64,000 nt of DNA. Origin: Planctomycetota bacterium. Its GTDB lineage: Bacteria; Planctomycetota; Phycisphaerae; UBA1845; UTPLA1. The notes beneath the pieces are model-generated. The model was not told the origin of the DNA, made no database searches, and saw only the letters and a list, made by a program, of their open reading frames with translations. Position 1 is the stretch's first letter, and every line of letters begins with the position of its first letter. Of the stretch, positions 36,528 through 63,993 are shown in pieces. The stretch is from positions 124,001-188,000 of the forward strand of contig QEVG01000005.1 in NCBI GenBank assembly GCA_003576905.1, given 5' to 3'. A program made the position numbers and the translations under genes.

Positions 36528-37601
36528 ATGGACCTTCACAATCTGCTCAAGTTCGCGGTGGAGAGCAAGGCGTCGGATCTTCACATTCAGGCAGGCTCGG
36601 CGCCGATGCTGCGGATCGAGGGAGAATCGCGGTTTCTCGAATCCGAGCCGCTGACGAACGACGCGACGCGGGGGTTCGTGCTTTCCATCCTCCCGGAGAA
36701 CCTGCGGGCCGACGCCGACCGCAACATCCGCGAGGGAATTGACTTTTCCTACGATGCACCGGGAATCTCGCGGTTTCGGTGCAGCGCACATAGCCAGCTC
36801 GGCAGGTACGGCATCGTGCTTAGGGTCATCAAGGCACGAATTCCGACGTTTGACGAAATGAACCTGCCGCCGGTCGTTCAGGAGGTGGCCCTCTCTCAGC
36901 GCGGTCTGACCCTGGTCACGGGCACGACGGGCTGCGGAAAGAGCACGACGCTGGCCGCGATGATCGACCTGATCAATCAGAAGTACCGCAACAAGATCAT
37001 CACAATCGAGGACCCGGTTGAGTTCATACACACGAACAAGAAGTCGATGATCTCGCAGTTGGAAGTGGGGACGGACACAACGTCGTTCGACCAGGCGCTT
37101 CGGCAGGCGCTGCGGCAGGATCCGGACGTGATCCTCGTGGGCGAGCTTCGCGACGTCGAGACGCTACGGATGGCGCTGCGGGCGGCGGATACGGGGCACC
37201 AGGTTTTCTCGACGCTGCACTGTCAGAACGCGGCGCAGGCGGTGGAGCGCATCATCGCGATGTTTCCGAAGAACGAGCACGACATCCTGCTCTCCCAGCT
37301 CGCCGACTCGATCGAGGCGATCATCTCGCAGCGGCTGGTCATGACCGCCGAGGGGAAGCGCCGCCCGGCGGTCGAGGTGCTCCGCGGCTCGCCGGTGACG
37401 GAGAAGTTCATCTTCGAGAACCGGCTGGGAGAGTTGCTGAGCTACATCGAGACGGGCGAATCCGGCATGCAGAGCTTCGATCAACACCTTCTCCGCATGT
37501 ACAACGATAAGGTCATAACGGGCACCGAGGCGCTGCGCTGGGCGACGAACCCGGAGGCCCTGGCGATGGCTTTCCGCGGCATTCGCCGAATCGGCGGCTA
37601 G
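36528..37601 (+). CDS. pilT: Type IV pilus retraction ATPase
   Basis: PilT is a hexameric ATPase that depolymerises type IV pili for twitching. The 357-residue sequence has the PilT N-terminal ASDLHIQAGSAPMLRI, Walker A GTTGCGKST (132-140), the Asp box IEDPVEFIH, Walker B VILVGELRD, the His box TGHQVFSTLH and the C-terminal IISQRLV. The AIRNLIRE motif of classical PilT is replaced by other sequence near the end, so it may be a PilT-like variant. No other pilus gene adjoins it; the pilC-like gene is 29 kb away. Confidence 0.9.
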   Translation: MDLHNLLKFAVESKASDLHIQAGSAPMLRIEGESRFLESEPLTNDATRGFVLSILPENLRADADRNIREGIDFSYDAPGISRFRCSAHSQLGRYGIVLRVIKARIPTFDEMNLPPVVQEVALSQRGLTLVTGTTGCGKSTTLAAMIDLINQKYRNKIITIEDPVEFIHTNKKSMISQLEVGTDTTSFDQALRQALRQDPDVILVGELRDVETLRMALRAADTGHQVFSTLHCQNAAQAVERIIAMFPKNEHDILLSQLADSIEAIISQRLVMTAEGKRRPAVEVLRGSPVTEKFIFENRLGELLSYIETGESGMQSFDQHLLRMYNDKVITGTEALRWATNPEALAMAFRGIRRIGG

Positions 37602-37644
37602 AGTCAAGTGGGTCGGCCTGCCGGAGAGTGTCAATACATGGGCA

Positions 37645-38112
37645 CTATTCGCCGGCCACGGGGGCTTCTTTAAGAAATCGGCGCATCGCCTCGAGTGTCC
37701 TGGGGCTGATGTGATGCTCGATGCCCTCGGCGTCGGCCTCGGCATCGGGCCGCGCCACGCCCAGGGAGAGAAGGAACTCCAGCACGAGGCGGTGGCGCTC
37801 GCGCGCCCGCCGGGCCATCAGGCGTCCCTTGTCGGTGAGGAATATCGAGCGGTAGGGGGCCGACGTCACCAAGCCCTCTTTCCGGAGCCGGCTGATGCTC
37901 TTTGTGACGGTCACGTGGGTCACGCCCAGATGCCGCGCGATATCCACGGCGCGGGCCTCGCCGCATTTCTGGATGAGGTCGTCGATCAGTTCGACATAAT
38001 CCTCGGCGAGTTCGAGGGCGTGATCCTGCCGGGTCCGGCGATGGCCGTTTGCCGAGCTCTCATGTACGGGATTCCTGCGAACGTGCTTTTTGCGGGCAAG
38101 TCGGTTCGGCAT
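37645..38112 (-). CDS. mntR: Manganese-responsive DtxR-family repressor
   Basis: The 155-residue protein has a basic N-terminal tail, a winged helix (LAEDYVELIDDLIQ then HLGVTHVTVTKSISRLRKEG) and a dimerisation/metal region (RHRLVLEFLLSLGV..EADAEGIEHHIS). Metal-site residues expected of MntR are visible: Asp and Glu in EDYVE, His in RHRL, and Glu, Glu, His in EGIEHH. It lacks the SH3 domain of DtxR, like MntR. ATG 38112 has GAGGA 5 bases upstream. It is divergent from the importer operon and probably binds the palindrome over that operon's promoter. Confidence 0.9.
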   Translation of the reverse strand: MPNRLARKKHVRRNPVHESSANGHRRTRQDHALELAEDYVELIDDLIQKCGEARAVDIARHLGVTHVTVTKSISRLRKEGLVTSAPYRSIFLTDKGRLMARRARERHRLVLEFLLSLGVARPDAEADAEGIEHHISPRTLEAMRRFLKEAPVAGE

Positions 38113-38234
38113 GGGATTCCTCGGCTGGGCCACGCGGCGCGATTGGCGGCACACGATGCGGCCGGCGACGTGCCCACGGTCGCATTCCCGGATTATTGCA
38201 CGCGGCGGGGCGCGAATTCAAGGGTGAGTACACC

Positions 38235-38269
38235 TTGACGCCGATGCTCCTCAATTGTAGTATATGCTA
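38235..38269 (+). promoter_or_regulatory. Promoter of the metal importer operon with overlapping operator
   Basis: TTGACG at 38235-38240 and TAGTAT at 38258-38263 are 17 bases apart, a good sigma-70 promoter. The -10 is inside the imperfect palindrome TAGTATATGCTA (38258-38269), where a DtxR/MntR dimer bound to metal would block transcription. A perfect 7-bp hairpin (TGCCAGG / CCTGGCA) follows at 38278-38297. Confidence 0.6.
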
Positions 38270-38343
38270 AATTATTTTGCCAGGACTTTACCTGGCATGG
38301 CGGATCGGCTATGCTCAACGGGAAAGGGGGAGCGGAGAGTCCC

Positions 38344-39381
38344 ATGCGTCATTGGACCGTTCGGGTGACCTGTCTTTTTCTCGTCATGTCGGGGTGGCTG
38401 ACCGTGCACGGCTGTGCGCCCGCGACCGAGGCCGCTCCGAAGGGCGGTCCGGCGCGGGTCGTCTGCACGGTCGGCATGGTGACGGATATCGTCCGGCGCA
38501 TCGCGGGGGAGCGCGCGGAGGTGTCAGGCATCATCGGCGAGGGCGTGGACCCGCACCTGTATCAGGCGACAAGGTCGGATATCGCCGCGCTGCTGGGCGC
38601 GGATCTGGTCTTTTACAACGGCCTGATGCTGGAAGGAAAGATGGCCGACGCGCTGATCAAGGTCGGCCGGCAGCGACCGGTCTTCGCCGTGACGGAACTG
38701 CTGGACGAGTCGTTGCTGCTGGAGCCGCCGGAGTTCGCCGGGCACTTTGACCCGCACCTGTGGATGGATGTCTCGCTCTGGAAGAGGTGCGCCGAGATGG
38801 TGGCGCGGACACTGAGCGAGCGCGATACGGACGGCGCGGCGGCGTATCGGGCGAATTACGAGGCGCTTGCCGCGGAACTGGACGCGCTGCACGCCTATGC
38901 GAAACGGACCATCGCGACGATACCGGCCGAGAGCCGCGTTTTGGTCACGGCCCACGATGCGTTCAATTATTTCGGCCGCGCATACGATATCGACGTGCGC
39001 GGGATTCAGGGAATCAGCACCGAGTCCGAGGCGGGAATCGCCGATATCAATCGCATTGTCGACATGCTCGTTCAGCGAAAAGTCCGTGCGGTCTTTGTGG
39101 AGTCGTCGGTGTCGGACAAGAACGTCAAGGCGCTGATTGAGGGGGCGGCGGCGCGGGGCCATCGGGTGACTATCGGCGGCTCGCTCTTCTCCGACGCGAT
39201 GGGTCGCCCCGGCACCTACGAGGGTACTTACGTCGGGATGATCGACCACAACGTGACCACGATTGCCCGCGCCCTGGGCGGCAGCGCTCCGGAGCGGGGC
39301 ATGGCGGGCAAGCTTTCCGCGGCCGCGGCTGAAGGGAAATCGCTCCATACGGCGACGACCGCAACGGATACGGGAGGATAA
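38344..39381 (+). CDS. Metal ABC importer, substrate-binding lipoprotein
   Basis: This 345-residue cluster A-I binding protein (MntA/TroA/ZnuA type) has a lipobox ending VHGC (Cys 24) and the four ligand regions: His in VDPHLYQ, His in FDPHLW, Glu in ISTESEAG and Asp in MIDHNV. It lacks the long His-rich loop typical of zinc-specific ZnuA, which together with MntR favours manganese (or iron). ATG 38344 is chosen over 38311 because GGAGA lies 6 bases before it. It is the first gene of a four-gene importer operon. Confidence 0.88.
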
Positions 39382-39449
39382 CGGCCAGAGCCGGTCGAGC
39401 GCGCCGCTCCGAGCGGCGGCAGGCGCGGCGGGCGGTCCGAAGTCCACAT

Positions 39450-40265
39450 ATGCACGATCAAACGTCACCTTCTTCCGTTCAGCGCGCCTCGCCGGATCAC
39501 GATCCGGCCTGCCCGGTCTCGATCCACGATCTGACGGTCGCGTACCATCGTCGTCCGGTGCTGTGGGATATCGACTACGCGGGGCCGGAGGGTCAGCTTA
39601 TCGGCATCGTCGGTCCGAACGGGGCCGGCAAGAGCACGTTGATCAAGGCCTGCCTGAATCTGGTTCCCATCGCGTCGGGCAGTGTAAGTTTCTACGGCAA
39701 GCCGTATCGCCAGCAGCGGCGGTTGGTGGGATATGTGCCGCAGCGTGAAAGCGTGGACTGGGATTTTCCGGCGAGCGTGCTCGACGTCGTCACGATGGGG
39801 CGCTATGGCCGGCTTCCGTGGTGTCTTCCGCCGACCCGAGAGGACCGCCGAGTGGCGCTGCATTGCCTTGAACAGGTGGGCATGGCGGATTACGCGCGGC
39901 GGCAGATCAGCCGGCTGTCGGGAGGGCAGCAGCAGCGCGTTTTCCTCGCGCGGGCCCTGGCCCAGGACGCACGCATCTACTTCATGGACGAGCCGTTCGC
40001 GGGGGTCGATGCCGCGACGGAAACGGCGATCGTCGGGATTCTTCGCGAGCTGAGGGCTCGCGGACGCACCGTGCTGATCGTGCATCACGATCTTCAGACC
40101 GTCGCGGAGTACTTCAATCACGTCATCCTCCTCAACATGCGGATCATCGCCGCGGGGCCCACGGCGCAGGTCTTTACGCAGGAGAACCTGCAAAAAACGT
40201 ACGGCGGGCGGCTGACGCTATTGGACAAGGCGGCGCAGGCGATGGCCCTGAACGGTAATCGATAA
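39450..40265 (+). CDS. Metal ABC importer, ATPase
   Basis: The 271-residue ABC ATPase shows Walker [10 protein letters not shown] (about 55-63), the Q-loop [13 protein letters not shown] typical of manganese/zinc importers, the signature LSGGQQQR, Walker B IYFMDEP and the H-loop LIVHHD. It powers the two permeases downstream. Its stop overlaps the first permease start (TAATG at 40263-40267). Confidence 0.93.
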
Positions 40266-41728
40266 TGTGCCCGGCATTCAGACAGAGAGAGCGCGACGAA
40301 TGGCATTTGATGTCGCCGCGTGCGCGAGCGCTCGCCGCAATCGGAATGGCCGGGGTCCTCTGGTGCGGCGCGACGGTCGTCGCATCGGAGCCGGGGCGCT
40401 CCATTACGGACACCTCCATTCGATGGCCGACGTGGCCGGAGTTGGCCCGGGCGCTCGCTCTTCGCGATTACAACACGCGTGTCGTGGTTCTTGGAACGGC
40501 GCTGCTGGGAGTGGCCGCCGGGGTCGTGGGCACATTTGCCTATCTTCGCCGGCGCGCCCTCATGGGCGACGCCCTCAGCCACGCCACGCTGCCGGGCATC
40601 GCGATCGTGTTTCTGCTGACCGGTGCCAAGAGCATGCCGCTGCTGCTGATGGGGGCAACGATTAGCGGCGTTCTGGGCGTGCTGGCGGTGCTCGGGATGC
40701 GGCGAATGCCGCGGATCAAGGAGGACGCGGCGATCGGAATCGTTTTGAGCGTCTTCTTTGGATTCGGCATGGTGCTTTTCGGGCTGATTCAACAGATGCA
40801 GACCGGCAACGAGGCGGGCCTGGCGGGGTTCATTTACGGCAAGGCGGCGGCGATGGTGGCGGGTGACGCCCGGCTGATCGGCGTCGTGGCGGCGGTCGTG
40901 GTCGCGGCCTGCGCGGCGCTGTTCAAGGAGTTTCGAGTCATCTGTTTCGATCAGGAATACGCTTCGTCGCAGGGTTTCCGCGTTCCGCTCATCGATCTGA
41001 TCATGATGGGACTGGTGGTCATGACAACGGTCGTGGGGCTTCAGGCGGTGGGGCTGATCCTGATCGTCGCGCTGCTGATCATTCCTGCCGCCGCGGCCCG
41101 GTTCTGGACCGATGACCTTTTGGTCATGGTGGCGCTGTCGGGGCTGTTCGGGGGCATGTCGTCCCTGATCGGCGCGACGCTCAGTGCGATTGTGTCGGGC
41201 CTTCCGACCGGGGCAATGATCGTTCTTTGCGCGGGTGTTTTCTTTTTTTTCAGCATGTTGATCGCACCGCGGCGAGGGGTGATTGCGTCGGCGGCGCGGC
41301 ACTGGCTGCTCCGAAGGCGCGTCGCATATCAGCACCTGCTACGAGCCCTCGCTGAGTATGAGGAGACACACGGCGAAGGGGCGGCGATCGGCCGAAAGGA
41401 CCTTTTCTCCGTCCGAAGCTGGTCCGCCGCGCAGGTGCGCCGAACGCTGGCGCGCGCGGTGCGGTCGGGCGATCTGGCGGTATTGGCGGATGGGTCCGTG
41501 CGCCTGACGCAGCGGGGCCGCGTCGAGGCACTTCGCATCCTGCGAAACCATCGACTGTGGGAACTCTACCTGATACGGCATGCGGACGTTGCGCCGTCGC
41601 ACGTGGATCGCGACGCGGATGAAGTCGAACACGTTTTGTCGGAGGCGATCGTGCGCGATCTCGAGCGGGCGCTCGATGAAGTCGCGCGCGTGCCGCCTTC
41701 GCCGCACGTGCGGGAACCGGCGCCATGA
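40265..41728 (+). CDS. Metal ABC permease fused to a DtxR-like domain (1)
   Basis: The first ~335 residues form a ZnuB/MntC-type permease with about eight to nine membrane helices, including LMGDALSHATLPGIAIVFLL and the coupling region DQEYASSQGF. From about 340 a winged-helix domain follows (SWSAAQVRRTLARAVRSGDL), then a DtxR-type dimerisation/metal region: RNHRLWELYLIRH..DADEVEHVLS, with the His, Glu and His expected of MntR-type metal binding (one Glu replaced by Asp). This permease-repressor fusion is like chlamydial YtgCR, which is known to release a repressor. Its stop overlaps the next start (ATGA). The domain may sense cytoplasmic metal and gate transport, or be cleaved off. Confidence 0.88.
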   Translation: MCPAFRQRERDEWHLMSPRARALAAIGMAGVLWCGATVVASEPGRSITDTSIRWPTWPELARALALRDYNTRVVVLGTALLGVAAGVVGTFAYLRRRALMGDALSHATLPGIAIVFLLTGAKSMPLLLMGATISGVLGVLAVLGMRRMPRIKEDAAIGIVLSVFFGFGMVLFGLIQQMQTGNEAGLAGFIYGKAAAMVAGDARLIGVVAAVVVAACAALFKEFRVICFDQEYASSQGFRVPLIDLIMMGLVVMTTVVGLQAVGLILIVALLIIPAAAARFWTDDLLVMVALSGLFGGMSSLIGATLSAIVSGLPTGAMIVLCAGVFFFFSMLIAPRRGVIASAARHWLLRRRVAYQHLLRALAEYEETHGEGAAIGRKDLFSVRSWSAAQVRRTLARAVRSGDLAVLADGSVRLTQRGRVEALRILRNHRLWELYLIRHADVAPSHVDRDADEVEHVLSEAIVRDLERALDEVARVPPSPHVREPAP

Positions 41729-43059
41729 CGGGATGGAACTGGCATCTCGACGGCTGGATCGTGCTGGCGGGCGTCCTCAGCGCATGTTCCTGCGCGCTGT
41801 TGGGCAACTATCTCGTGCTGCGCCGCATGAGCCTGATGGGCGACGCGATTTCACACGCGGTTCTGCCGGGGCTGGCCATTGCATTCCTGGTGACGCACAG
41901 CCGGTCGGCGGTGCCGATGTTTGCCGGCGCGGTCATCGCGGGCGTCGTGACGGCCGTCCTGTCGCAGGCAGTGAACCGGCACGGCAAGGTGGAACATGGG
42001 GCGGCGATGGGCGTCGTTTTCAGTGTACTGTTCGCGCTGGGGTTGATCCTCATTCGCCAGGCCGCCGATCATGTGGACCTTGATCCGGGCTGCGTTCTCT
42101 ACGGGAACATCGCCCAGATTCCGCTTGAGGCGATCGGCGGACGCGTTCCGCCGCAGGTCGTGAACCTGGCCGTCGTGCTGGTTGTTGACGTGCTCTTCGT
42201 GGTACTTTTCTACAAGGAGCTGAAGATTTCCACGTTTGATCCGGAACTGGCGACGACGCTGGGGTACAACGCGGATACCCTGCACTACGCGCTGATGGTC
42301 CTCGTCTCCGTGACAACGGTCGCCAATTTCGAGTCGGTGGGGTCGATCCTGGTTATCGCCATGCTCATTGTGCCCGCCGTGACGGCGCACCTCCTGACGG
42401 ACCGGCTGAGCGCCATGATCGGTGTCAGCCTGATGGCCGCGTGCCTGTCGGCGATCGGCGGCCATGTCTTCGCCGCCTTCGGTCCGGGCTGGCTCGGCAT
42501 GAAGGCGGCGACCAACACATCCGCGATGATGGCCGTCGTAGCGGGACTGCTTCTCTGCGCGGCAGTGCTCCTGGCCCCGCGGCATGGACTCGTCAGCAGG
42601 CTTCTGCATCGCAGGCAGATGCGGATGACAATCCTTCGCGAGGATATTCTGGGTCTGCTCCATCGGTGGCAGGAGATGCGGGCCGAAGGCGGCAGGGCAA
42701 TGACGCATCGCGAAGTGCTCGCGGCCGTTGGAGATACTCGTTCCGTGCGCCAGGCCATCCGTTCGCTGCTTCGAAAGCAGTTTGTCGAGAAGGCTTCCGG
42801 CCCCCCGGACGCGGGGCACACCTACCGCCTAAGCGGAGACGGGCAGGCCCGAGCCGCCCGCCTGATTCGATCGCACCGACTGTGGGAATCCTACATCGAT
42901 CGCCACTTCAACCTGCCGCCGGACCATGTACATATGTCCGCGGAACGGGTCGAGCACTTCCTCACTCCGGAGTTGCGCCACGAAATTGAGGCCGACCTGA
43001 CGTCTCCGCGAACGGATCCCCACGGGCGCGAGATCCCGCCGGAGTCAATCGGGGGGTGA
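41725..43059 (+). CDS. Metal ABC permease fused to a DtxR-like domain (2)
   Basis: The 444-residue protein again joins a membrane permease (residues ~1-288, LMGDAISHAVLPGLAIAFLV, DPELATTLGY) to a C-terminal winged helix (~305-365, MTHREVLAAVGDTRSVRQAI) and a DtxR metal/dimer region (RSHRLWESYIDRHF..SAERVEHFL). His, Glu and Glu-His metal ligands are present, and a leading REDILG partly keeps the MntR N-terminal Asp site. The two permeases are presumed to form the heterodimeric channel, which would place two DtxR modules side by side in the cytoplasm. It is the last gene of the operon; a 7-bp hairpin follows at 43070-43096. Confidence 0.88.
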   Translation: MTGWNWHLDGWIVLAGVLSACSCALLGNYLVLRRMSLMGDAISHAVLPGLAIAFLVTHSRSAVPMFAGAVIAGVVTAVLSQAVNRHGKVEHGAAMGVVFSVLFALGLILIRQAADHVDLDPGCVLYGNIAQIPLEAIGGRVPPQVVNLAVVLVVDVLFVVLFYKELKISTFDPELATTLGYNADTLHYALMVLVSVTTVANFESVGSILVIAMLIVPAVTAHLLTDRLSAMIGVSLMAACLSAIGGHVFAAFGPGWLGMKAATNTSAMMAVVAGLLLCAAVLLAPRHGLVSRLLHRRQMRMTILREDILGLLHRWQEMRAEGGRAMTHREVLAAVGDTRSVRQAIRSLLRKQFVEKASGPPDAGHTYRLSGDGQARAARLIRSHRLWESYIDRHFNLPPDHVHMSAERVEHFLTPELRHEIEADLTSPRTDPHGREIPPESIGG

Positions 43060-43507
43060 ACGGTCCCAGGGCACCGGAGGGACGGGGTACGGTGCCGTTC
43101 GGGCGATTTCAGATCAAACGGGCTGCGACTGAACCCTCTGGCCGCAAGCCGCCCTGCCGGCGGTGCGTCTCATACTCCCGAAACCTGGGATTTATCGGGT
43201 CTATCGGGTCTGTGTGGCCCCCTCCGGTTACGCAGTTCCGGTCGGCCCCTTATTTGCGGGACCGAACACGGGGCCTTTGGAACAGGGATTGCTCAATGGA
43301 GCATCGGCTGGGTTTGGCATGATGGCGATGGTTTTGATATAAGAGTATATTTTTAAATAGTTTATGACGTTGTTGTGTGCCAAGTAGCCGGGTCGAGTGG
43401 CCCTGTTTCGGACCCGGCAATGTGCACTGAAACACACTTCGCTTGTGTGATAATACACAGCGATCCTGATTAGGGGTTGGAAATCGAGTCGGACCGGAGT
43501 CGCACTC
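43060..43507. other. Gene-free region before the histidine kinase
   Basis: This 448-base stretch contains a hairpin (GGCACCG / CGGTGCC, 43070-43096) that may end the metal operon, and an AT-rich patch around 43335-43365 that could hold the kinase promoter. No credible gene is seen. Confidence 0.5.
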
Positions 43508-44932
43508 GTGTCCCGCATCCGCTGGTATCACTACTACTTCCTGCTCGCGCTGTTTGACGTCTTTGTCATTCTGCTGAGCCTCCACCTGCATAGCCGGACG
43601 GTCGCCAGCGCGTCTGAACTCATCCATGCGGCTACGGACCTCGACGAGCAGTCACGGTGGCTGCAACTGGCGCAACAGAGAATCCTGGAATTGAACGCTC
43701 CCGGCAACGACCTCTTCCGTATGGAGGACTATCGCCTCCAGATTGCGCGGTTCGAGGTGGCTCGCCGGAACATGGACGAGGCGCTTCGGCAGGCGAGGAA
43801 GCTGCACATTCCCGTCGACCTGCCGACGCGTGAGATTGGGGAGATGGTGGCATCGGCGGAGACGGTCTTCGCGGAGTTCGCGTCGATCCAACGCGCGGAT
43901 GTGACGGAGGACGTGAGGCGGGAGGCCATAGGCCGGGCCGGCAAGGCGATGGCACGGATGGATCAGTGGCAGCATGAATCGCTCTCGCGGCTGGGTCTGG
44001 TGCTCGCGAAAAACGCGGAAGTGCGCGATCGCCTTCTCCAGGAACACGAAAGCGACCTTCAGGCGCGCATTACCTATGAGCGGTATTTCATCGCGGCGGT
44101 CATCCTTATCCTTGTGGGCATTCTGTGGTTCGGCCGCCGATTGCAGGAATACGACCGTGCCCTTCAGGAACAGCGGCGCCGGCTGGCCGAGGAGCGCCGC
44201 GAGCGTCTGGCGGCGATCGGCGAACTGTGCTCCAGCGTCGCCCATGGGATTCGAAATCCGCTCGCGGCGATCCGCAGTTCCGCGCAGCTTACTCTCGAGC
44301 TCGGCCGGATGGACGACGCCTCGCAGGCACGGCTCAAGGACATCCTGGAGGAAGGCAAGCGGCTGGGCGATCGCGTCACGGGCCTCCTGGGAATGGCGCG
44401 GGCCAACGCTGAGGGCTTTGAATCGGTCAATCTGGGCGAACTGGTCGCAGGGGCGGTTATGGAACTGCGCCCGGAACTGGAGCGCCGGCAGATCGGAATT
44501 CAGGTCGAAATCGCTCCGGAGGAAATCCACGTGCACGGCGACCGCCATCAGCTTGCGCAGGTCGTTGTCGAATTGCTTTCCAATTCAATGGATCACGCCA
44601 AGGCGGGAGACTGCATCCACGTCGCCTGCCGCAGGCCGTCGGCCAACGGTACGGCCGCCATCGAGGTCGCTGACGAGGGGCCCGGCGTGCCGGAGGAAAT
44701 CCGATCACGTGTTTTTGATCTGTTCTTTACGACGAAGCCGGGCGGAACGGGTATCGGGCTGGCGACGATCAAGCGATATGCCCGGCTGCACGGTGGGGAC
44801 GTGACACTGGCGCCGTCTCACAGGGGAGCGCGGTTTCTCGTCACGCTTCCGGTGGCGCGCAGGGGTGATTCGGCGGCCCCGGAGGGGCATACGCCGCGGG
44901 ATGAGCCGGAGGCACAAGCGGGCAAACAGTGA
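43508..44932 (+). CDS. Membrane sensor histidine kinase (NtrB-like)
   Basis: This 474-residue kinase has an N-terminal membrane helix (YYFLLALFDVFVILLSL), a helical outside domain (about 30-195), a second helix (YFIAAVILILVGILWF, about 196), a coiled coil, then the phospho-acceptor box VAHGIRNPLAAIRSSA (His about 246) and the ATPase boxes LLSNSMDHAKAG, VADEGPGVPEE, FFTTKPGGTGIGLA. The two-helix layout fits sensing of an envelope signal. Start is GTG 43508. The NtrC-type regulator starts 54 bases after its stop, so they form a two-component pair likely controlling sigma-54 promoters. Confidence 0.92.
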   Translation: MSRIRWYHYYFLLALFDVFVILLSLHLHSRTVASASELIHAATDLDEQSRWLQLAQQRILELNAPGNDLFRMEDYRLQIARFEVARRNMDEALRQARKLHIPVDLPTREIGEMVASAETVFAEFASIQRADVTEDVRREAIGRAGKAMARMDQWQHESLSRLGLVLAKNAEVRDRLLQEHESDLQARITYERYFIAAVILILVGILWFGRRLQEYDRALQEQRRRLAEERRERLAAIGELCSSVAHGIRNPLAAIRSSAQLTLELGRMDDASQARLKDILEEGKRLGDRVTGLLGMARANAEGFESVNLGELVAGAVMELRPELERRQIGIQVEIAPEEIHVHGDRHQLAQVVVELLSNSMDHAKAGDCIHVACRRPSANGTAAIEVADEGPGVPEEIRSRVFDLFFTTKPGGTGIGLATIKRYARLHGGDVTLAPSHRGARFLVTLPVARRGDSAAPEGHTPRDEPEAQAGKQ

Positions 44933-44986
44933 ATGTCGAGCGGCGGCAGAGCCGGTCGCCGCTTGTCTGATTTCGGAGACAGTGCG

Positions 44987-46399
44987 ATGGCACGAATACT
45001 GGTTGTTGAAGATGAGCGCGTTCTTGCGAAGAACGTGCGCGAAAAGCTGGCGGCGCATGGACACGAGGTTCGAATCGCGCATAGCGGACGCGAGGCGACG
45101 GCGACCAATGCCGAGTTTCTGCCCGAGGTGGTGATTCTCGACCTGCGCCTGCCGGACACCGACGGGCTGAAGATCCTGCCGCAGCTCAAGGCGGAGTCGC
45201 CCTTCACCAACGTGGTGGTAGTCACGGCCCACGGCAACGAGCGCATCGCGGTGGATGCCATGAAGGCGGGGGCGTGCGAGTATCTCACGAAGCCCGTCGA
45301 CCTTGACGAGCTCCTCATGGTCGTGGGGCGGGTTGTCGATCTCCAGCAGATCAATGACAACCTGACGTTTCTCAAGAGCCGCGAGGAAGAGAGCAGCGGG
45401 CTGGACCGCATCATCGGCGATTCGGAACCGGTACGGGCGCTCAAGGAAAGCATCCGCCGGCTTACGCGAACCGAAGTGCTGAGCCTGCCCGATCCGCCGA
45501 CGGTGCTCATCACCGGCGAGACCGGAACCGGCAAGGATCTCGTCGCACGGGCGATTCACTACCAGGGGCCGCGACGGGGCCGGCCGTTCATTCACGTCAA
45601 TTGCACTGCGCTTCCGTCGACGCTGTTTGAATCCGAACTGTTCGGGCACGTACGCGGGGCATTCACAAGCGCGACCCAGGCGAAGCGCGGACTGTTTGAG
45701 GTGGCCCAGGGCGGAACGATATTCCTCGATGAAATCGGTCACCTTGAGGCCGACATGCAGGCGAAGCTGCTGCAGACCATCGAGCACCGCGAGATACGCC
45801 CGGTGGGCGCGACGCAGACACGGCCGATCAACGTGCACATCGTGGCGGCGACGAATCGAGACCTCTCGGCCGCCGTGGAAAGCGGCGAGTTTCGGCGCGA
45901 CCTGTACCATCGCCTGCGCGTCGTGCACCTCCATCTCGCGCCGCTGCGGGACAGGCCGGAGGATATTCCGCTGCTTGCCACGCACTTCCTGAACCTTCAC
46001 TGCCGGCGGTTCGGGCTCGGCGCGAAGCACTTTTCGGAAGAGGCCCTGCGCGCACTTCGCCGTTTTGACTGGCGCGGAAACGTCCGCGAACTGTCGCACA
46101 CGATCGAGAGCTGTGTGCTCCAGGCGGATTCCGACGTGGTCGAGCCGGGCCACCTCCCGATGCCGGGCGAGGGCAAGGCGGCCGACATGACGATCGAGCT
46201 GCCGCACAACCGCGTGATTCAGATGGATTTTGAGCGTGAGCGGCCCACCCTGGACGAGGTGGAGCACGCCATACTCGTTGCGGCGTTCGAATACACTGGC
46301 CAGAACCTGAGCCGGGCCGCGCGAATCCTTGGCATTACGCGGGAAGCCCTGCGTTACCGGCTTAACAAGTCGATGGAGACGACGCGCCATGCGCAGTAA
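44987..46399 (+). CDS. NtrC-family sigma-54-dependent response regulator
   Basis: The 470-residue protein has a receiver domain (phospho-acceptor Asp 52 in [12 protein letters not shown]), an AAA+ domain with Walker A GETGTGKD (177-184), the sigma-54 contact loop as GAFTSA (224-229; usual form GAFTGA), Walker [11 protein letters not shown], and an Arg-finger region RRDLYHRL. It ends with a Fis-type helix-turn-helix ([19 protein letters not shown]). ATG 44987 has GGAG 8 bases upstream. Ser in place of Gly in the contact loop is tolerated in some activators. The gene overlaps the dockerin protein gene by 11 bases. A good sigma-54 promoter match lies at 49119-49134. Confidence 0.93.
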
Positions 46400-55117: not shown

Positions 55118-55173
55118 GGCGTACGAAGCCCGAATCCGTTCTTTCAAAAATCAATCGAATATGAGATTTGAGT

Positions 55174-56952
55174 ATGGCAACCGTCTATCGAAAAACATTT
55201 ACCAAGCCGCTGCCCGAAGGCGCAGAAATCTTTTCCCGCAAAGGCGAGCAATTCGCCCGCTGGAAAGATAGCAACGGCCGGACCCGTACCGAGCGGGTAA
55301 CAATCGGCCGCGACGGCTCACCGCGCATCATCGCCGAGGCCGCGACATTCACCGCGAAGTATCGCGACGGGCAAGGGCATGTCATAGAGCTGCCGACCGG
55401 CTGCCGGGACGAAACTGCCGCCCGTGGCGTGCTGTCGCAACTGGTGCGACGGGCGGAGCTGGTGAAAGCGAACGTGATAACCGCCGACGAAAGCGCGGCG
55501 GCGGATCATCAGGACCGGCCGCTGTCGGAACACTTCGCCGCCTACATCGCACACCAGCGGGCCAAGGGACTTAGCGCCGTCCGAATCGAGAATACGCGCC
55601 GCCGTCTGGACCGCATCGCCGAGGGCTGCGACTTTCAACGGCTCGCCAAGCTAAGCGCCGCAGCTCTGGAAAAATGGCTTGCCGAGAAGAGCGCCGCGGG
55701 CATGTCGGCTGGCAATCGAAACGCATACCGGGAAGCAATCGTCGGCTTTGCCAATTGGTGCGTGCAGACATCCAGACTGGTGAGCAATCCATTCAACAGG
55801 GTGCCGAAGGCGGATGCGCGGGCAGACTGCAAGCGAAAGCGCCGGGCGCTGACCGAGGATGAATTACAGCGACTTCTCTACGTCGCTCGAAGTCGGCCGC
55901 TGGCGGAGTATGGCCGGGAGTCGATGAAAGTTGAGCCGGACCCGAAGGCGGAGAAGCCAAAGCGGGCATGCTGGACTTTCGCACCGCTGACAATCGCGGA
56001 CATGCCCGCAGCAATCGAACGCGCCCAAAAGCGATTCGAGAAGCGGTCAGACTTCATCGCCGAAGTGATAAAGCGCGGCCGGGAGCGGGCTTTGATTTAC
56101 AAGGCGCTGGTGCTGACCGGGCTACGCAAGGGCGAGCTGGCATCGCTGACTGTCGGGCAACTCGACCTGGACGGGCCGACGCCGTTTCTGGTGCTGCATG
56201 CGGCCGACGAAAAGAACCGCAAGGGCGCGGAACTGCCGCTACGGGCCGATTTGGCGAGCGACCTACGCGAATGGCTGGCTGATCGGCTGCAATCGCTCCA
56301 AGGCGAAGCAAGGCGGGTTGTCGGGGCTTCCGTGCCGCTGCGGTTGCCGCCCGAGTTGCCGCTATTCAACGTGCCGACTGGATTGGTGCGGATACTGGAT
56401 CGGGACATGAAGGCGGCGGGGATCGCCAAGCGAGACGACAGAGGCCGGACCGTCGATGTCCATGCACTTCGGCATACGTTCGGTACGATGCTGAGCAAGG
56501 GCGGAGTCGCGCCCCGAACGGCACAGGCCGCGATGCGGCACAGCTCCATCGACCTGACGATGAACACCTACACCGACCCGCGCCTTTTGGACGTGGCCGG
56601 GGCCGTGGCCGCGCTGCCCGAACTGCCGCTGGATGCGATGCCCAAGCACTCACCCGAAGTCGCCGTCGCAACCGGCACGGACGGCCGAAGCATTCCGACA
56701 AATGATGTCGATTCGCTTGCACCACCGCTTGCACCAACTTCTGACAAAACGAGCATATTGGGGGCAAGGCCGGACAAGGCGGACCCAAGCGGGGGTGCCG
56801 ACTTGGCGACATCGGCAATCGCCGTAAGTGTCGATGGCGACAGAAGAAATCGCCCGCCGTCATTCGCAGACAGCGGGCGTCAGAATGTCGGGGCGAGAAG
56901 ATTTGAACTTCCGACCTCTGCGTCCCGAACGCAGCGCTCTAAACCAGGCTGA
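55174..56952 (+). CDS. Tyrosine recombinase/integrase
   Basis: The 592-residue integrase has an N-terminal SAM-like core-binding domain (about 110-215) and a catalytic domain with Arg in TGLRKGELASLTV (about 314), the box HALRHTFGTML (about 430), His in AAMRHSSIDL and the nucleophile region MNTYTDPRLL. A roughly 100-residue tail follows. The last 20 codons are antisense to the tRNA-Pro gene and give GARRFELPTSAS, a known by-product of reading through tRNA genes. ATG 55174 is chosen over TTG 55168. It presumably integrates the element at tRNA-Pro. Confidence 0.9.
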   Translation: MATVYRKTFTKPLPEGAEIFSRKGEQFARWKDSNGRTRTERVTIGRDGSPRIIAEAATFTAKYRDGQGHVIELPTGCRDETAARGVLSQLVRRAELVKANVITADESAAADHQDRPLSEHFAAYIAHQRAKGLSAVRIENTRRRLDRIAEGCDFQRLAKLSAAALEKWLAEKSAAGMSAGNRNAYREAIVGFANWCVQTSRLVSNPFNRVPKADARADCKRKRRALTEDELQRLLYVARSRPLAEYGRESMKVEPDPKAEKPKRACWTFAPLTIADMPAAIERAQKRFEKRSDFIAEVIKRGRERALIYKALVLTGLRKGELASLTVGQLDLDGPTPFLVLHAADEKNRKGAELPLRADLASDLREWLADRLQSLQGEARRVVGASVPLRLPPELPLFNVPTGLVRILDRDMKAAGIAKRDDRGRTVDVHALRHTFGTMLSKGGVAPRTAQAAMRHSSIDLTMNTYTDPRLLDVAGAVAALPELPLDAMPKHSPEVAVATGTDGRSIPTNDVDSLAPPLAPTSDKTSILGARPDKADPSGGADLATSAIAVSVDGDRRNRPPSFADSGRQNVGARRFELPTSASRTQRSKPG

Positions 56953-56963
56953 GCTACGCCCCG
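56888..56963 (-). tRNA. tRNA-Pro, anticodon CGG
   Basis: The minus strand folds into a full cloverleaf: acceptor CGGGGCG/CGCCCCG, D stem GCTC/GAGC, anticodon stem CTGCG/CGCAG with loop TTCGGGA, T stem GGAAG/CTTCT and loop TTCAAAT, discriminator A. The anticodon CGG is at 56925-56927. CCA is not encoded. Its 3' end faces the integrase and is the likely attachment site. Confidence 0.93.
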
Positions 56964-59016: not shown

Positions 59017-59727
59017 GCAGCGGCATCAAGGGGAGCCATGGGCCGGTCCGATCGTGGATCGGTTAAGAGAAAAGGGCACCAGGGACGTAGAGTGCGGCAC
59101 ACCAAAATTGCCGATTACGGCTTATCGTCCCATAAGGTGGTGCCACCGGAAGGATCTGGATTGGCGGTACCAAGTTTCGCAGGTTATAGCTACAATGAGG
59201 GGGCGGCAAGGATTGCCGCCGCCGAATCTGCAGGACGCAGAGATAATCAGTTCTTCGGCGCTGTTGCCTCAATCGCCGTGAGGCAGTACGACACCGATAA
59301 ACGTCGGTTGAGAACTGCTGTTTACAGTTTGCGTGTTTCAAGGTATTTCACGGTTTCGGCAAGAGTTGCACCGCGTTTCATCAATCACCCTGTAAACGCT
59401 GTTTCCACCGAAAGTCGCGGTGCCGGTGTGACGAATGAGATGCGCCGTCTTAGCGGTCCGTGGCACGGAATGTGCGGTAGTCGATCGGAGCAGTTTCGCA
59501 CGGGTGGAGCCTCTTTCGTCTTCATGACGGGCGAGGGTCGGCGGGACTCTCCGGGTGTCTGAAAGGCAGTAGCGGCCTCAAGGCGGAGGCCGATGGTACG
59601 CGACGAGTGGATATGGTTAACCGGACGAACAGGCTATGAGGTCGAACGCCGGTGTGGTAAAGGCGCGATATCACCAGCAGAAACGCTTGATGACGCGCGA
59701 GAGCAACATGAGATTCGGGAGGCTGGT
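59017..59727. other. Gene-free region before the DUF11 pair
   Basis: About 710 bases. A 174-codon open frame (59038-59562) exists, but its third-position GC is far below that of the neighbouring genes and its sequence looks like none I know, so I do not call it. No tRNA or strong terminator is seen. Confidence 0.45.
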
Positions 59728-62010
59728 ATGAGAGTTCAAAGGTTCCGAGGTTTTGCATGCCTGATGTTGGCCGCTACGGCGGTCTCCCTTGTGGGGTGTC
59801 GAGAAAGCATGCCCCACTCCTTCACATGGCCGGCGACGGGTGACACGATTCCCACGCACCCGAAGCCCCCGGAGGGCGGCTATTACTCCGACTGGGATCC
59901 CTACGCAGCGACGCTGGAGATCACGCCCCTTGAGGCCGTGAATCCCGTGCGCACGCAGCACGTCCTGATCGCGACGGTTCGCGACAAGGAAGGCAAGCCG
60001 CTGCCGAATCGGCGCGTCGAGTGGATGATCGCCGACCAGAGTGTGGGCAGCATTGTTGAGGTGGACGAGAGCGGTTTCCGCGCCAGCCGCGGTTACAAGC
60101 TGACCAACAGCTACGCTATCTCCCACACCAACAACTACTCGCATACGCTCACCCGCGGCACGGATGATCCGTCCGACGATATCAACCTCGAGCCCGGCCA
60201 GACATGGTGCGTGATCACCTCGGCCGTCGAGGGCGACACCCACATCATCGCGTACTGCCCGGCGATTTATGACTGGACGAAGCACAAGGTCTTCGCCGTC
60301 AAGCACTGGTACGACGTTTCGTGGGAGTGCCCGGCTCCGGACACCAACATGGTCGGCACGCCGCACGAGATGGTCACCCGGGTCTTCAAGTACTCGGATG
60401 GCTCGCCGCTGGCCGGCTACCTGGTCACCTACAAGATCATGTCCGGCCCCGGCGGTCGGTTTGATCCCGGCGCCGCCAACACCGTCACGGTCAACACCGG
60501 TGACGACGGCATTGCCCGCGTGGTCCTGAACCAGGACACGCCGATGGAAGGCGTCAATGAGATCCAGATCGACATCAATCGACCTGAGAACGCCCAGTGC
60601 TGCAAGCCCGGCGCTCATATCGCGACCTGCAACACCACCAAGACCTGGCTGGCGCCGCAGATCGATATCACCAAGAGCGCTCCGGCCCGCGCCGAAGTCG
60701 GCGACGAGTTTGACTACAGCATCGTCGTCTCGAACCCGGCCCAGATGGCTGCCGAGAACGTCACCGTCCGCGACAATCTGCCGGACGGCATCGTGTACGT
60801 TTCGAGCAACCCGGCCGCGTCCGTCTCCGGTCAGGCCCTCAGCTGGAACCTCGGCACGCTGGCCGGCGGCCAGAGCGCCGCATTGTCGGTTCGCGTCCGC
60901 GCGACCCGAACGGGCACCTTCCACAACTGTGCCGACGTGACCGCGTCGAACGGTCTGTCGGACAATGCCTGTGCCGATACGGTTGTCACGGCTCCGTCGC
61001 TGGCCCTGGTCCTCAACTGCCAGGCCGAGCTGATGCTCTGTGACAACGTTCCGTTCCGCGTGGTCGTCAGCAACAACGGCGACGGCACCGCGAAGAACGT
61101 CATGGTCACCGTGGATCTGCCGGATGGTCTGGCGAGCTCCGACGGTCGCAACCAGCTCAGCTTCTCCGCGGGCAACCTCGGAGCGGGCCAGAGCAAGGAA
61201 GCCACCTTCAACGCCAAGGCCTCGCGCGTGGGTGATTACGGAGTCCGTGCGTCGGCCACCGCCGACGGCGGTCTGATGGCCGATTCCAACTGCTCGACGC
61301 GAATCGTTTCGCCGTCGCTGGCCGTTTCCAAGACCGGTCCGGATGTCCGCTACATCGGACGCCCCGCGACCTATCAAATCACCGTCAACAACACGGGCAA
61401 CGTCCCGGCTCGCGACGTCATCCTGACTGACACGATCCCGGCCGGCCTCCAGTTCATCAGCGCCAGCGATGGCGGCCAGATGAGCGGCGGACGCGTCACG
61501 TGGAACCTGGGCACGATGGAACCTGGCTCTTCGAAGTCCGTTACGACGGAACTGAAGGCGACCGGCTTCGGCTCAGTGGTCAACACCGCGACGGTCCAGG
61601 CCTACTGTGCCGACGCGAACGCGTCGTACACGATGGAGGTCAAGGGTGTCCCGGCCGTTCTGCTTGAAGTGATCGACATGAACGATCCGATCGAAGTGGG
61701 CGGCACCGAGACGTACGAGATCGTGGTCACGAACCAGGGTTCGGCGCCCGACCTCAACACGAAGATCGTCGTCACGCTCCCGCCGGAGATGGATTACGTC
61801 TCCGCGTCGGGTCCGTCCGGCGAGCAGGCTTCGGTGGAAGGCAAGACCATTTCCTTCCCGCCGTATCCGTCGCTGGCTCCGAAGCAGCGCATCATCTACA
61901 AGGTCCAGACCAAGGCCAATGCGGTCGGCGACGTCCGCTTCCGGACCACGATGACCAGCGACATGCTTCAGACGCCGGTCGAGGAAACCGAGAGCACGCA
62001 TATCTACTGA
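59728..62010 (+). CDS. DUF11-repeat surface lipoprotein (paralogue A)
   Basis: The 760-residue protein has a lipobox (MLAATAVSLVGC, Cys 23). A region of about 280 residues follows with Ig-like invasin (Big_1) character (VLIATVRDKEGKPLPNRRVE; MVTRVFKYSDGSPLAGYLVT). Four DUF11-type beta modules start near 309, 424, 529 and 640, with signatures such as YIGRPATYQITVNNTGN and WNLGTMEPGSSKSV. It ends VEETESTHIY. ATG 59728 has GGGAGG 6 bases upstream. DUF11 modules stack as Ig-like stalks in cell-surface proteins. It is followed by the CTCAGA repeat, a strong terminator and a paralogue. Confidence 0.85.
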   Translation: MRVQRFRGFACLMLAATAVSLVGCRESMPHSFTWPATGDTIPTHPKPPEGGYYSDWDPYAATLEITPLEAVNPVRTQHVLIATVRDKEGKPLPNRRVEWMIADQSVGSIVEVDESGFRASRGYKLTNSYAISHTNNYSHTLTRGTDDPSDDINLEPGQTWCVITSAVEGDTHIIAYCPAIYDWTKHKVFAVKHWYDVSWECPAPDTNMVGTPHEMVTRVFKYSDGSPLAGYLVTYKIMSGPGGRFDPGAANTVTVNTGDDGIARVVLNQDTPMEGVNEIQIDINRPENAQCCKPGAHIATCNTTKTWLAPQIDITKSAPARAEVGDEFDYSIVVSNPAQMAAENVTVRDNLPDGIVYVSSNPAASVSGQALSWNLGTLAGGQSAALSVRVRATRTGTFHNCADVTASNGLSDNACADTVVTAPSLALVLNCQAELMLCDNVPFRVVVSNNGDGTAKNVMVTVDLPDGLASSDGRNQLSFSAGNLGAGQSKEATFNAKASRVGDYGVRASATADGGLMADSNCSTRIVSPSLAVSKTGPDVRYIGRPATYQITVNNTGNVPARDVILTDTIPAGLQFISASDGGQMSGGRVTWNLGTMEPGSSKSVTTELKATGFGSVVNTATVQAYCADANASYTMEVKGVPAVLLEVIDMNDPIEVGGTETYEIVVTNQGSAPDLNTKIVVTLPPEMDYVSASGPSGEQASVEGKTISFPPYPSLAPKQRIIYKVQTKANAVGDVRFRTTMTSDMLQTPVEETESTHIY

Positions 62011-62018
62011 TAGCGGCT

Positions 62019-62034
62019 CTCAGAGAAATCTGAG
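62019..62034. repeat. CTCAGA inverted repeat, copy 3
   Basis: CTCAGA-GAAA-TCTGAG lies 8 bases after the stop of DUF11 paralogue A and just before its terminator. Confidence 0.5.
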
Positions 62035-62043
62035 CAACCTTAC

Positions 62044-62085
62044 GGGCGGCACGATCAGGGAATCCTGGTCGTGCCGCCCTTCTTA
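62044..62085 (+). terminator. Rho-independent terminator of DUF11 paralogue A
   Basis: A 16-bp stem with one G-T pair (GGGCGGCACGATCAGG / CCTGGTCGTGCCGCCC, 4-base loop) is followed by a T-rich stretch. Confidence 0.9.
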
Positions 62086-62211
62086 TTTGGAACTACAATC
62101 TGCCCGTCAGCACGTCTTCGCGGCAACGGAGGGGGCCGGCGGTCCGTGGAGACTCGGTGGGAAGTGCCATACCAGTGGCAGATAGGACCACGATTTCCAA
62201 AGGAGATGAAC

Positions 62212-63993
62212 ATGAACCGTCAACCCCTCTTGATCCTCGCCTCGCTCGTCGCCGGGGCCGTTTTCATGGGCGCGGGCGCCCGGGCGCAGGACGCCCCGGA
62301 TCCCTATCCGCACATGGCCCGGCGGACGGCCGGCACGTCGCGCGTCCAGCCGGCCCCGGCCACGGCGGCTCAGCCGTCGGCGCACTCCGCACCCGTCGTG
62401 TCTCGTCATGGCAATCTGAGGCCCGGCGTCATTGAAGGCGCCTACGTGCGCGGCGGTGCGCAGCCGTCTGTGCAGGTTGCGTCGGCTGTACCTTCGCGGC
62501 CGACGCCTGCGGCATCCGTCGCGGCCCCGGTCATGCACGCTGCGCAGGCTGCCGCCGTGGCCCAGTCCGGTGCATCGAAAGCTCCGGCGCCGCCAAGGGG
62601 TGCCGTGAATCGAACGGAGACGTTCTTCCCGTCCGGCTCGCGCGACAGCAGTTCGATCATGCTGGAGCGAAGCGTTCCGGCTGAAGTACGGACGGGCGAT
62701 ATGTTCACCTATGAGATCAAGCTGACCAACCAGAGCAACACCGAAGTCCGCTCCGTTGAGCTCCTCGAGCGAATGCCCGCCGGATTCAAGTATGCCAGTG
62801 CGACTCCGGCGCCCACGTCGGAGGAAGGCACGGAACTGCGGTGGTCGCTTGGCAACATGGGCCCCCGGCAGTCGACTTCGCTGCGCGTCACCGGGTCTGG
62901 CGACGCCACCGGCGAACTCAGCTACTGCGCGACCGTGACCTTCCAGACACAGCTCTGCAACGCGAATCGGGTTGTCGAGCCGGCGCTCGAACTGACCATG
63001 ACTGCGACGCCGGAGGTCATCCTCTGTGACCCGGTCACCCTTCGATACGTCGTTCGGAACACCGGCTCCGGCATTGCCCGCGGCGTAAAGGTCATCGCCG
63101 TGCTGCCTGCGGGCTGGAAGACGCAGGACGGCCGGTCGGGCGTGACGTTTGACGCGGGGGACCTGCGGGCCGGGCAATCGAAAGAGGCGACGCTTGTCGC
63201 CAAGGCCTCTGAGACCGGCAGTTTTACAAACACCGCGCGTGCGACGGAAGAAGGCGGACTTTCGGCCGAGGCCAGCGCGGACACACGCGTAACAGTGCCC
63301 AGGCTCGCATTAACCAAGACAGGGCCGGATATGCGCTATCTTGGCCGCCCGGCGACCTTTGAGCTAACGGTGTCGAATGACGGCGACGGCCCCGCGCGGG
63401 ATACGGTCGTGGTCGATGACATTTCCGCCGGCACGCGGATCATCGAAGCGACACAGGGTGGACAGGTGTCCGGCGGGCGCGTGACCTGGAATCTCGGCAC
63501 GCTGGAGCCCGGGGCGCGGCAGACGTTGAGCGTTTCGCTCGTTCCTGGTCAGATCGGAACGGTGCGCAATACCGCGTTTGCCAAGGCCTACTGCGGCGAG
63601 GCAAGCGCGGAATCGTCGATGCAGGTTAGCGGCGTCTCGGCCGTTCTTCTCGAGGTGGTCGATAACGACGACCCCATCGAGGTGGGCATGAACGAGACCT
63701 ACGACATCATCGTGACGAATCAGGGTTCCGCCGATGACACCAACATTGTCATCGAGTGCACGATTCCGGATGAGCAGGAGTATGTCTCGTCCGACGGCCC
63801 GACCACGGCAGCCGTCGCCGGCAAGGTCGTGCGCTTCGCGCCGCTGGCGCGGCTCGCGCCCAAGGCAAAGGCGGTATGGCGCGTCGTGGTGCGCGGTAAT
63901 TCGGTGGGCGACGTACGATTCCGCACGACCCTGGACAGCGACCAGCTGGAAACAAACGTCGAAGAGACCGAAAGCACGCACATCTACGAATAG
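62212..63993 (+). CDS. DUF11-repeat exported protein (paralogue B)
   Basis: The 593-residue protein has a signal peptide (MNRQPLLILASLVAGAVFMG..ARAQ), an Ala/Pro/Val-rich linker (about 25-140) and four DUF11 modules starting near 146, 256, 362 and 473. Each resembles the same-numbered module of paralogue A (for example YLGRPATFELTVSNDGD), and the end VEETESTHIYE is nearly identical. ATG 62212 is chosen because AGGAG is 6 bases upstream. Unlike A it has no lipobox and lacks the Big_1-like region. The pair arose by tandem duplication and may form surface layers or fibres. Confidence 0.87.
   Translation: MNRQPLLILASLVAGAVFMGAGARAQDAPDPYPHMARRTAGTSRVQPAPATAAQPSAHSAPVVSRHGNLRPGVIEGAYVRGGAQPSVQVASAVPSRPTPAASVAAPVMHAAQAAAVAQSGASKAPAPPRGAVNRTETFFPSGSRDSSSIMLERSVPAEVRTGDMFTYEIKLTNQSNTEVRSVELLERMPAGFKYASATPAPTSEEGTELRWSLGNMGPRQSTSLRVTGSGDATGELSYCATVTFQTQLCNANRVVEPALELTMTATPEVILCDPVTLRYVVRNTGSGIARGVKVIAVLPAGWKTQDGRSGVTFDAGDLRAGQSKEATLVAKASETGSFTNTARATEEGGLSAEASADTRVTVPRLALTKTGPDMRYLGRPATFELTVSNDGDGPARDTVVVDDISAGTRIIEATQGGQVSGGRVTWNLGTLEPGARQTLSVSLVPGQIGTVRNTAFAKAYCGEASAESSMQVSGVSAVLLEVVDNDDPIEVGMNETYDIIVTNQGSADDTNIVIECTIPDEQEYVSSDGPTTAAVAGKVVRFAPLARLAPKAKAVWRVVVRGNSVGDVRFRTTLDSDQLETNVEETESTHIYE

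Follow-up and report, generated by a model that had tools for sequence, protein, structure and literature searches.

The subject of this analysis is a metal ABC (ATP-binding cassette) importer locus at positions 37645-43059 of a 64,000-nucleotide stretch from the Planctomycetota bacterium lineage UTPLA1 (assembly GCA_003576905.1, contig QEVG01000005.1, positions 124,001 to 188,000; the window), in which both permeases end in a tail related to metal-sensing gene repressors of the DtxR family. The ABC-3 importer set is complete side by side, with ABC-3 permease cores, an ABC ATPase and a ZnuA-type binding protein; the operon runs from the binding protein through the ATPase and permease 1 to permease 2, and mntR is located upstream, divergently on the opposite strand. 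The locus holds the following features:

37645-38154, minus strand: free MntR, a DtxR/MntR family repressor of the E. coli MntR type (NCBIfam NF008273, Pfam PF01325 and PF02742)
38235-38263, plus strand: sigma-70-like promoter of the transport operon, TTGACG-17-TAGTAT (consensus scan)
38252-38275, plus strand: MntR-box-like imperfect palindrome CAATTGTAGTATATGCTAAATTAT over the -10 element (12-base core at 38258-38269)
38311-39381, plus strand: ZnuA-type substrate-binding lipoprotein (Pfam PF01297, 5.4e-77; translation probably starts at 38344, by visual inspection)
39450-40265, plus strand: ATP-binding subunit (in NCBIfam the models for manganese/iron and for manganese ABC ATPases score best, neither reaching its cut-off)
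40265-41728, plus strand: permease 1, the first of the operon, fused to tail 1 (487 aa)
40475-41263, plus strand: ABC-3 core of permease 1 (residues 71-333; Pfam 1.2e-60; PsaBC Z 33.4)
41279-41371, plus strand: predicted helix (residues 339-369; AlphaFold2 model) that runs without a break from the core of permease 1 into helix 1 of tail 1
41309-41725, plus strand: tail 1, DtxR-like winged helix-turn-helix (wHTH) and metal domain (PF02742 at 41507-41692)
41725-43059, plus strand: permease 2, the second of the operon, fused to tail 2 (444 aa)
41761-42567, plus strand: ABC-3 core of permease 2 (residues 13-281; Pfam 8.8e-51; PsaBC Z 32.0)
42589-42678, plus strand: predicted helix (residues 289-318; AlphaFold2 model) that runs without a break from the core of permease 2 into helix 1 of tail 2
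42619-43056, plus strand: tail 2, DtxR/SloR-like domain (PF02742 at 42838-43038)

The two permease frames share 4 bases, at the end of permease 1 and the start of permease 2. The free MntR passes the threshold of the NCBIfam model NF008273 MntR (193.9 bits, cut-off 153) and matches E. coli MntR (2h09) at 4.6e-36, and the three PF02742 matches of the entire genome are all situated inside the importer locus.

An initial annotation had described both permeases as fused in frame to a DtxR-like domain, with a third copy as free MntR, and the agreement of open reading frames, Pfam domains, profile searches and AlphaFold2 models confirms that both permeases end in tails derived from a metal-sensing gene repressor. 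Both proteins combine ABC-3 (PF00950) with Fe_dep_repr_C (PF02742; E-value 6.3e-15 in permease 1 and 3e-19 in permease 2). Searched against PDB sequences, the alignment profile of tail 1 retrieves DtxR at 1e-13 and that of tail 2 a metal-dependent regulator (1.9e-24), DR2539 (9.5e-24) and SloR (7.9e-21), in each case spanning wHTH and metal domain, which places the C-termini among the DtxR-related proteins. In the AlphaFold2 models, which are monomers (mean predicted local distance difference test 84.8 for permease 1 and 91.0 for permease 2), residues 350-480 of permease 1 match DtxR 2qq9 (Z 13.2, 2.7 Å, 126 residues) and residues 298-443 of permease 2 match DtxR 1p92 (Z 17.4, 2.1 Å, 137 residues); the VIA-align rows are a re-examination of Foldseek matches, and as a Z near 13 may reflect a common helical-bundle arrangement, the assignment of tail 1 leans on the sequence matches too. 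The linker between core and tail is short, arginine-rich and modelled as a helix, and its composition fits a cytoplasmic position of the tail. The earlier description of the tails as winged-helix plus metal-binding segments holds for the fold, but not for a recognizable DtxR DNA-binding domain, as PF01325 is undetected in both window tails while the free MntR possesses it.

The tails of relatives show a split that is new here and unlike the free repressors, with near-invariant metal ligands next to a poorly kept recognition helix and wing. Among 20 loci in which both tails occur together with a free repressor, the mean pairwise identity of the wHTH and of the metal part amounts to 0.384 and 0.822 in tail 1, 0.355 and 0.667 in tail 2, and 0.618 and 0.629 in the free repressors; with gaps ignored, the wHTH-to-metal ratios are 0.48 (locus bootstrap range 0.46-0.51), 0.57 (0.53-0.62) and 0.98 (0.93-1.02), respectively. 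In alignment-dependent columns, the identity for tail 1, tail 2 and free repressors is 0.30, 0.38 and 0.56 in the recognition helix and 0.31, 0.30 and 0.70 in the wing; helix 1 reaches 0.62, 0.63 and 0.68. In all, 187 tail segments were cut, 67 from the sample taken at genus, family and order level (order set) and 120 from named genomes (named set). PF02742 is present in 120/120 scanned tails (65 of the 67, leaving out both L066 tails, and 55 of the 120) and PF01325 in 0/120 (E-value 0.01), while both domains are detected in 23/23 control free repressors of the same loci (23 of 27, with L070-L073 left out). That the metal part is strongly kept and the DNA-reading part is not suggests that the tails sense metal to control the importer itself and not genes.

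With respect to the metal sites, the candidate ligands of tail 1 are H429, E433, H446, D448, D452, E455, H456 and H481; in tail 2, D307, E407, E410 and H411 form a candidate site 2 and H384, E388, D431 (for Cys123) and H433 a candidate site 1, all in SloR positions. In the order set, with positions given in DtxR numbering, H79, E83, H98, E105 and H106 of tail 2 are present in 32/32 and D10 in 31/32; position E102 is E in 24/32, D in two more and another residue in six, and the DPHG end is found in 30/32. In tail 1, H79, E83, H96, E105 and H106 are present in 31/31, D98 in 30/31, D102 in 29/31 and the SPH end in 30/31. Judged from the alignments, both putative metal sites of tail 2 have their ligands at SloR-type positions, with Asp replacing Cys123, and tail 1 carries a derived ligand set (HVDRDAD, SPH). 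The correspondence of tail 2 to site 1 and site 2 relies on the SloR ligands as given in PMC9253540; SloR and MntR assignments alike were taken from the literature. Near-invariant ligands and open frames extend across several phyla. As a separate observation, the near-invariant HVDRDAD and SPH of tail 1 (41309-41725), together with R-x-W in the helix-2 region, lie outside the classic DtxR pattern, and perhaps these residues contact the ATPase or tail 2.

A chance event or local oddity was considered as an origin of the architecture and rejected, as fused permeases occur in at least 37 of the 61 genomes sampled at genus, family and order level (window included), 30 of them with a tail on both permeases; the fusion extends far beyond one locus. 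This sample yielded 36 fused-permease regions plus four regions with free copies only, and PF02742 matches in 55/61 genomes; the other 24 genomes were inspected in part, with a match in G056 that lies in a frame of 463 aa at the edge of a contig. Among the 37 fused loci, the tail is on the second permease only in L036 and L043 and on the first only in L041, and the operons L054, L063, L065 and L069 have one fused permease and no second in the region (in L060 the labels first and second are swapped through ordering by open reading frame start). Phylum-wide, PF02742 occurs in 75 of 128 genomes, and among the matches listed several genomes have a pair of copies, separated by 1.2 to 1.6 kb, whose frames exceed 440 aa, as candidate fusions.

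A scan of named genomes was seeded with tail 1, and is thereby uninformative on tail-2-only systems. Among the best 80 of its 257 relatives, the closest of which are Phycisphaerae, 41 loci are double fusions (32 Planctomycetota, four Verrucomicrobiota/Kiritimatiellota, three Spirochaetaceae, one Omnitrophota and one unnamed bacterium) and 25 are first-only (including L105 with a broken second permease), 23 Verrucomicrobiota loci having the tail on the first permease only. The remaining loci comprise six with the second permease cut by the contig end, five with one visible permease (in L121 the first permease is cut by the contig start), a frame-broken one (L104) and two without room for a second permease. 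At least five named loci (L074, L075, L076, L118 and L123) probably stem from the same genomes as order-set loci. One first-only fusion (L152) is on a contig labelled Hyphomicrobiaceae, either by transfer or from a mislabelled bin.

The tails are not needed as the sole DtxR-family repressor, as 29/30 double-fusion genomes have at least one PF02742 copy whose frame is shorter than a fused permease would require (read by hand). In the window, the palindrome over the promoter has two mismatches to TAGCATAGGCTA, a level that 2% of 200 mono-nucleotide shuffles reach; as these shuffles keep the single-base composition of the region only and the spacers are AT-rich in GC-rich DNA, such fractions are rough. 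In 37500-43600, 8 promoter-like sites are found compared to a shuffled mean of 1.1. Between mntR and the operon, a TAGCATAGGCTA-like palindrome with 0-2 mismatches is present in 13/19 regions tested, of which L043, L047 and L059 gave the motif and are not independent support, and L036 with L043 and L039 with L044 are kin; L034, L037, L046, L052, L055 and L064 have three to five mismatches. A palindrome search across the divergent regions returned few sites. The palindrome presumably resembles E. coli MntR boxes, a literature search on which found nothing. By these sequence features the free MntR has a probable operator over the operon promoter, which would leave the tails free for another job.

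As to the substrate, the same genome encodes a separate unfused ABC-3 permease (C61), which groups with other unfused permeases in the core tree. This permease and the MntR-type regulator make Mn2+, possibly Mn2+/Fe2+, the likelier substrate, and disfavour a zinc importer. A manganese riboswitch was not found in the window, where two tRNAs alone scored above gathering thresholds.

Comparison with known systems draws on PMC5599777, PMC7755916, PMC6504234, PMC10710835, PMC9253540 and PMC9861239. Permease-repressor fusions are reported in 11 phyla (Thompson 2012, as cited in PMC5599777), and the chlamydial YtgCR of the YtgABCD system is described as a metal ABC importer permease with a C-terminal DtxR-like domain (PMC5599777, PMC7755916, PMC6504234). 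The likeness to YtgCR put forward in the initial annotation fits in fold and permease-DtxR architecture, the DtxR metal/dimerisation domain following the metal permease in frame in both; in the planctomycete locus, however, both permeases are tailed, a free MntR stands alongside and the tails give no match to PF01325, whereas YtgR is reported as cleaved and DNA-binding, a comparison drawn from published descriptions. With manganese importers of the PsaBC and TroCD type the locus shares the permease cores (PsaBC Z 32-33), binding protein and ATPase, but the matched PsaBC chains have no such tail, and TroCD is not known to have one either. SloR, DR2539 and DtxR have the fold and metal-ligand positions of the tails, yet are free DNA-binding proteins, while here the domains are permease-fused with poorly kept DNA-contact parts. 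Single permease-DtxR fusions being already known, the split conservation within the tails is the addition; a literature search, outside which most subscription papers lay, found no report of double permease fusions.

The reading that we favour on balance, from sequence, models and analogy, is that the free MntR controls transcription and that the tails, as a pair, respond to metal in the cytosol and gate transport by trans-inhibition. With plentiful metal, free MntR would bind the palindrome over the promoter and repress transcription of the operon. The repressor-derived tails, in which the DNA-contact elements appear no longer kept, while the metal site and helix 1 (continuing into the membrane core) are, would at high cytosolic metal bind the metal and rigidify. 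Metal-loaded tails probably pair under the transporter like DtxR protomers, and the pair would hold the importer in a non-transporting state, as is described for the C-terminal domains of MetN and ModC in the MetNI and ModABC importers (PMC10710835). The common element, a C-terminal substrate-sensing domain on an ABC importer, provides a mechanistic analogy only; those domains have other folds and are part of the ATPase subunit and the importer here is no member of those families. Paired tethered sensors that gate transport directly, one of two possibilities raised in the initial annotation, are consistent with the kept ligands, the poorly kept DNA-contact elements, the continuous helix and the separate MntR with its likely operator.

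Several points weigh against this gating role. The trans-inhibition domains cited are on the ATPase and not on the permease, and chlamydial YtgR, a permease tail, is reported to bind DNA (PMC5599777, PMC7755916, PMC6504234), its reported cleavage and repression being the main reason for caution. As one of two permeases is tailed in 23 Verrucomicrobiota and 3/37 order loci, a tail pair per transporter is not obligatory, and no further PF02742 copy was seen in the fused-permease genomes G036, G060, G028 (double-fusion, 80% complete) and G199, two of which, G036 and G060, have a single fused permease and no second. Position 10 of tail 1 lacks the Asp (H in 20 and N in 11 of 31), so site 2 of tail 1 is altered. 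The low wHTH identity could also stem from diverse operators, the recognition-helix and wing values vary with the alignment, and some tails have weak matches to HVO_A0261_N (1/30, 2/31, 4/36), MarR_2 (1/30 and 1/23), GntR (1/36) and PadR (1/36); free repressors match several other wHTH families widely, such as MarR_2 in 23/23.

For tails, one or both, that are cut from the permease to act as metal-dependent repressors speak three points: YtgR is described as released from its permease fusion and repressing its own operon (PMC5599777, PMC7755916, PMC6504234), the complete wHTH fold is retained and a few fused-permease genomes have no other PF02742 copy. The poorly kept recognition helix and wing, the lack of PF01325 in all scanned tails, the free MntR with its box-like site and the short, helical linker nevertheless make two cleavable repressors, the other proposal of the initial annotation, the poorer fit and less likely. 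A shared internal start was not found, a Shine-Dalgarno-like in-frame start occurring in the first 30 codons in 4/31 of tail 1 and 9/32 of tail 2, which concerns separate translation and says nothing on cleavage. A tethered repressor that binds DNA while uncut, an idea raised for full-length YtgC in PMC5599777, meets the same poorly kept DNA-contact elements and the same free MntR, and is very unlikely.

Ligand conservation alone gives neither sign nor output, and a helix joins the tails to the channel, so that metal-dependent tails might instead activate transport, act in assembly or proteolytic turnover, or accept metal from the channel; two DtxR domains would be an elaborate metal acceptor, though, and the kept helix 1 together with the metal/dimerisation domain suggests conformational coupling, which leaves such outputs rather improbable. 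That the tails are a relic or artefact without function might be read from the tailless permease in relatives such as L036, L041 and L043, and seems most improbable given that in several phyla the frames are open and the ligands hardly vary.

Discussion of how metal ABC importers are controlled mostly concerns transcription. If transport is gated as favoured above, a DtxR domain on each permease would give the membrane subunit a feedback valve of its own, and the permease-DtxR fusions described to date, which have been taken as sources of cleaved repressors, would need re-reading; the clear ligand residues and tails make the idea testable.

In the permease-core tree, first and second permeases form two clades (100/97 and 100/100), outside which the order's four single fused permeases fall (99/84), a position that is weakly supported with extra unfused rows (86/42). 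The unfused spirochaete pairs L201, L224 and L225 (G188, G218, G227) nest inside both fused clades, as if their tails were lost, and Verrucomicrobia second permeases without tail nest among fused seconds. Two rows of the first core tree that bear the label unfused, L163_Ut and L168_Ut, represent fused copies; in the enlarged tree the 'unfused' rows L187, L188, L190, L193-L200, L202 and L203, second permeases in short loci and many cut by the locus end, were disregarded. In the tree of tails and repressors, 26 sampled free repressors are on one side of a branch (100/99), the tails of the four single permeases group with tail 2 (97/86), and the tail of the L066 second permease has a weakly supported place (78/16) next to these repressors. 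The simplest account, with moderate support from these trees, is a single fusion before the permease pair arose and several later tail losses. More tentatively, a repressor captured by a metal importer might have lost its DNA-reading role and turned into an allosteric metal gate, paired and built into the permeases, that is now present in Planctomycetota, Verrucomicrobiota, Spirochaetota and Omnitrophota, having arisen once on a single (homodimeric) permease before the pair, with losses in some lineages later on. Cleavage of the repressor in chlamydiae would in that case be an exception within a device that mostly works after translation.

Elsewhere in the window, an apparent histidine kinase and an NtrC-like response regulator (translations read by eye) are located directly 3' of the importer operon at 43508-46399. 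Two adjacent large DUF11-repeat proteins at 59593-63993 touch in the same stretches the chlamydial cysteine-rich OMP6 family, the first just above and the second below the family cut-off. A phage-type integrase frame at 55168-56963 overlaps with its 3' end a tRNA-Pro gene on the opposite strand, a possible integration site.

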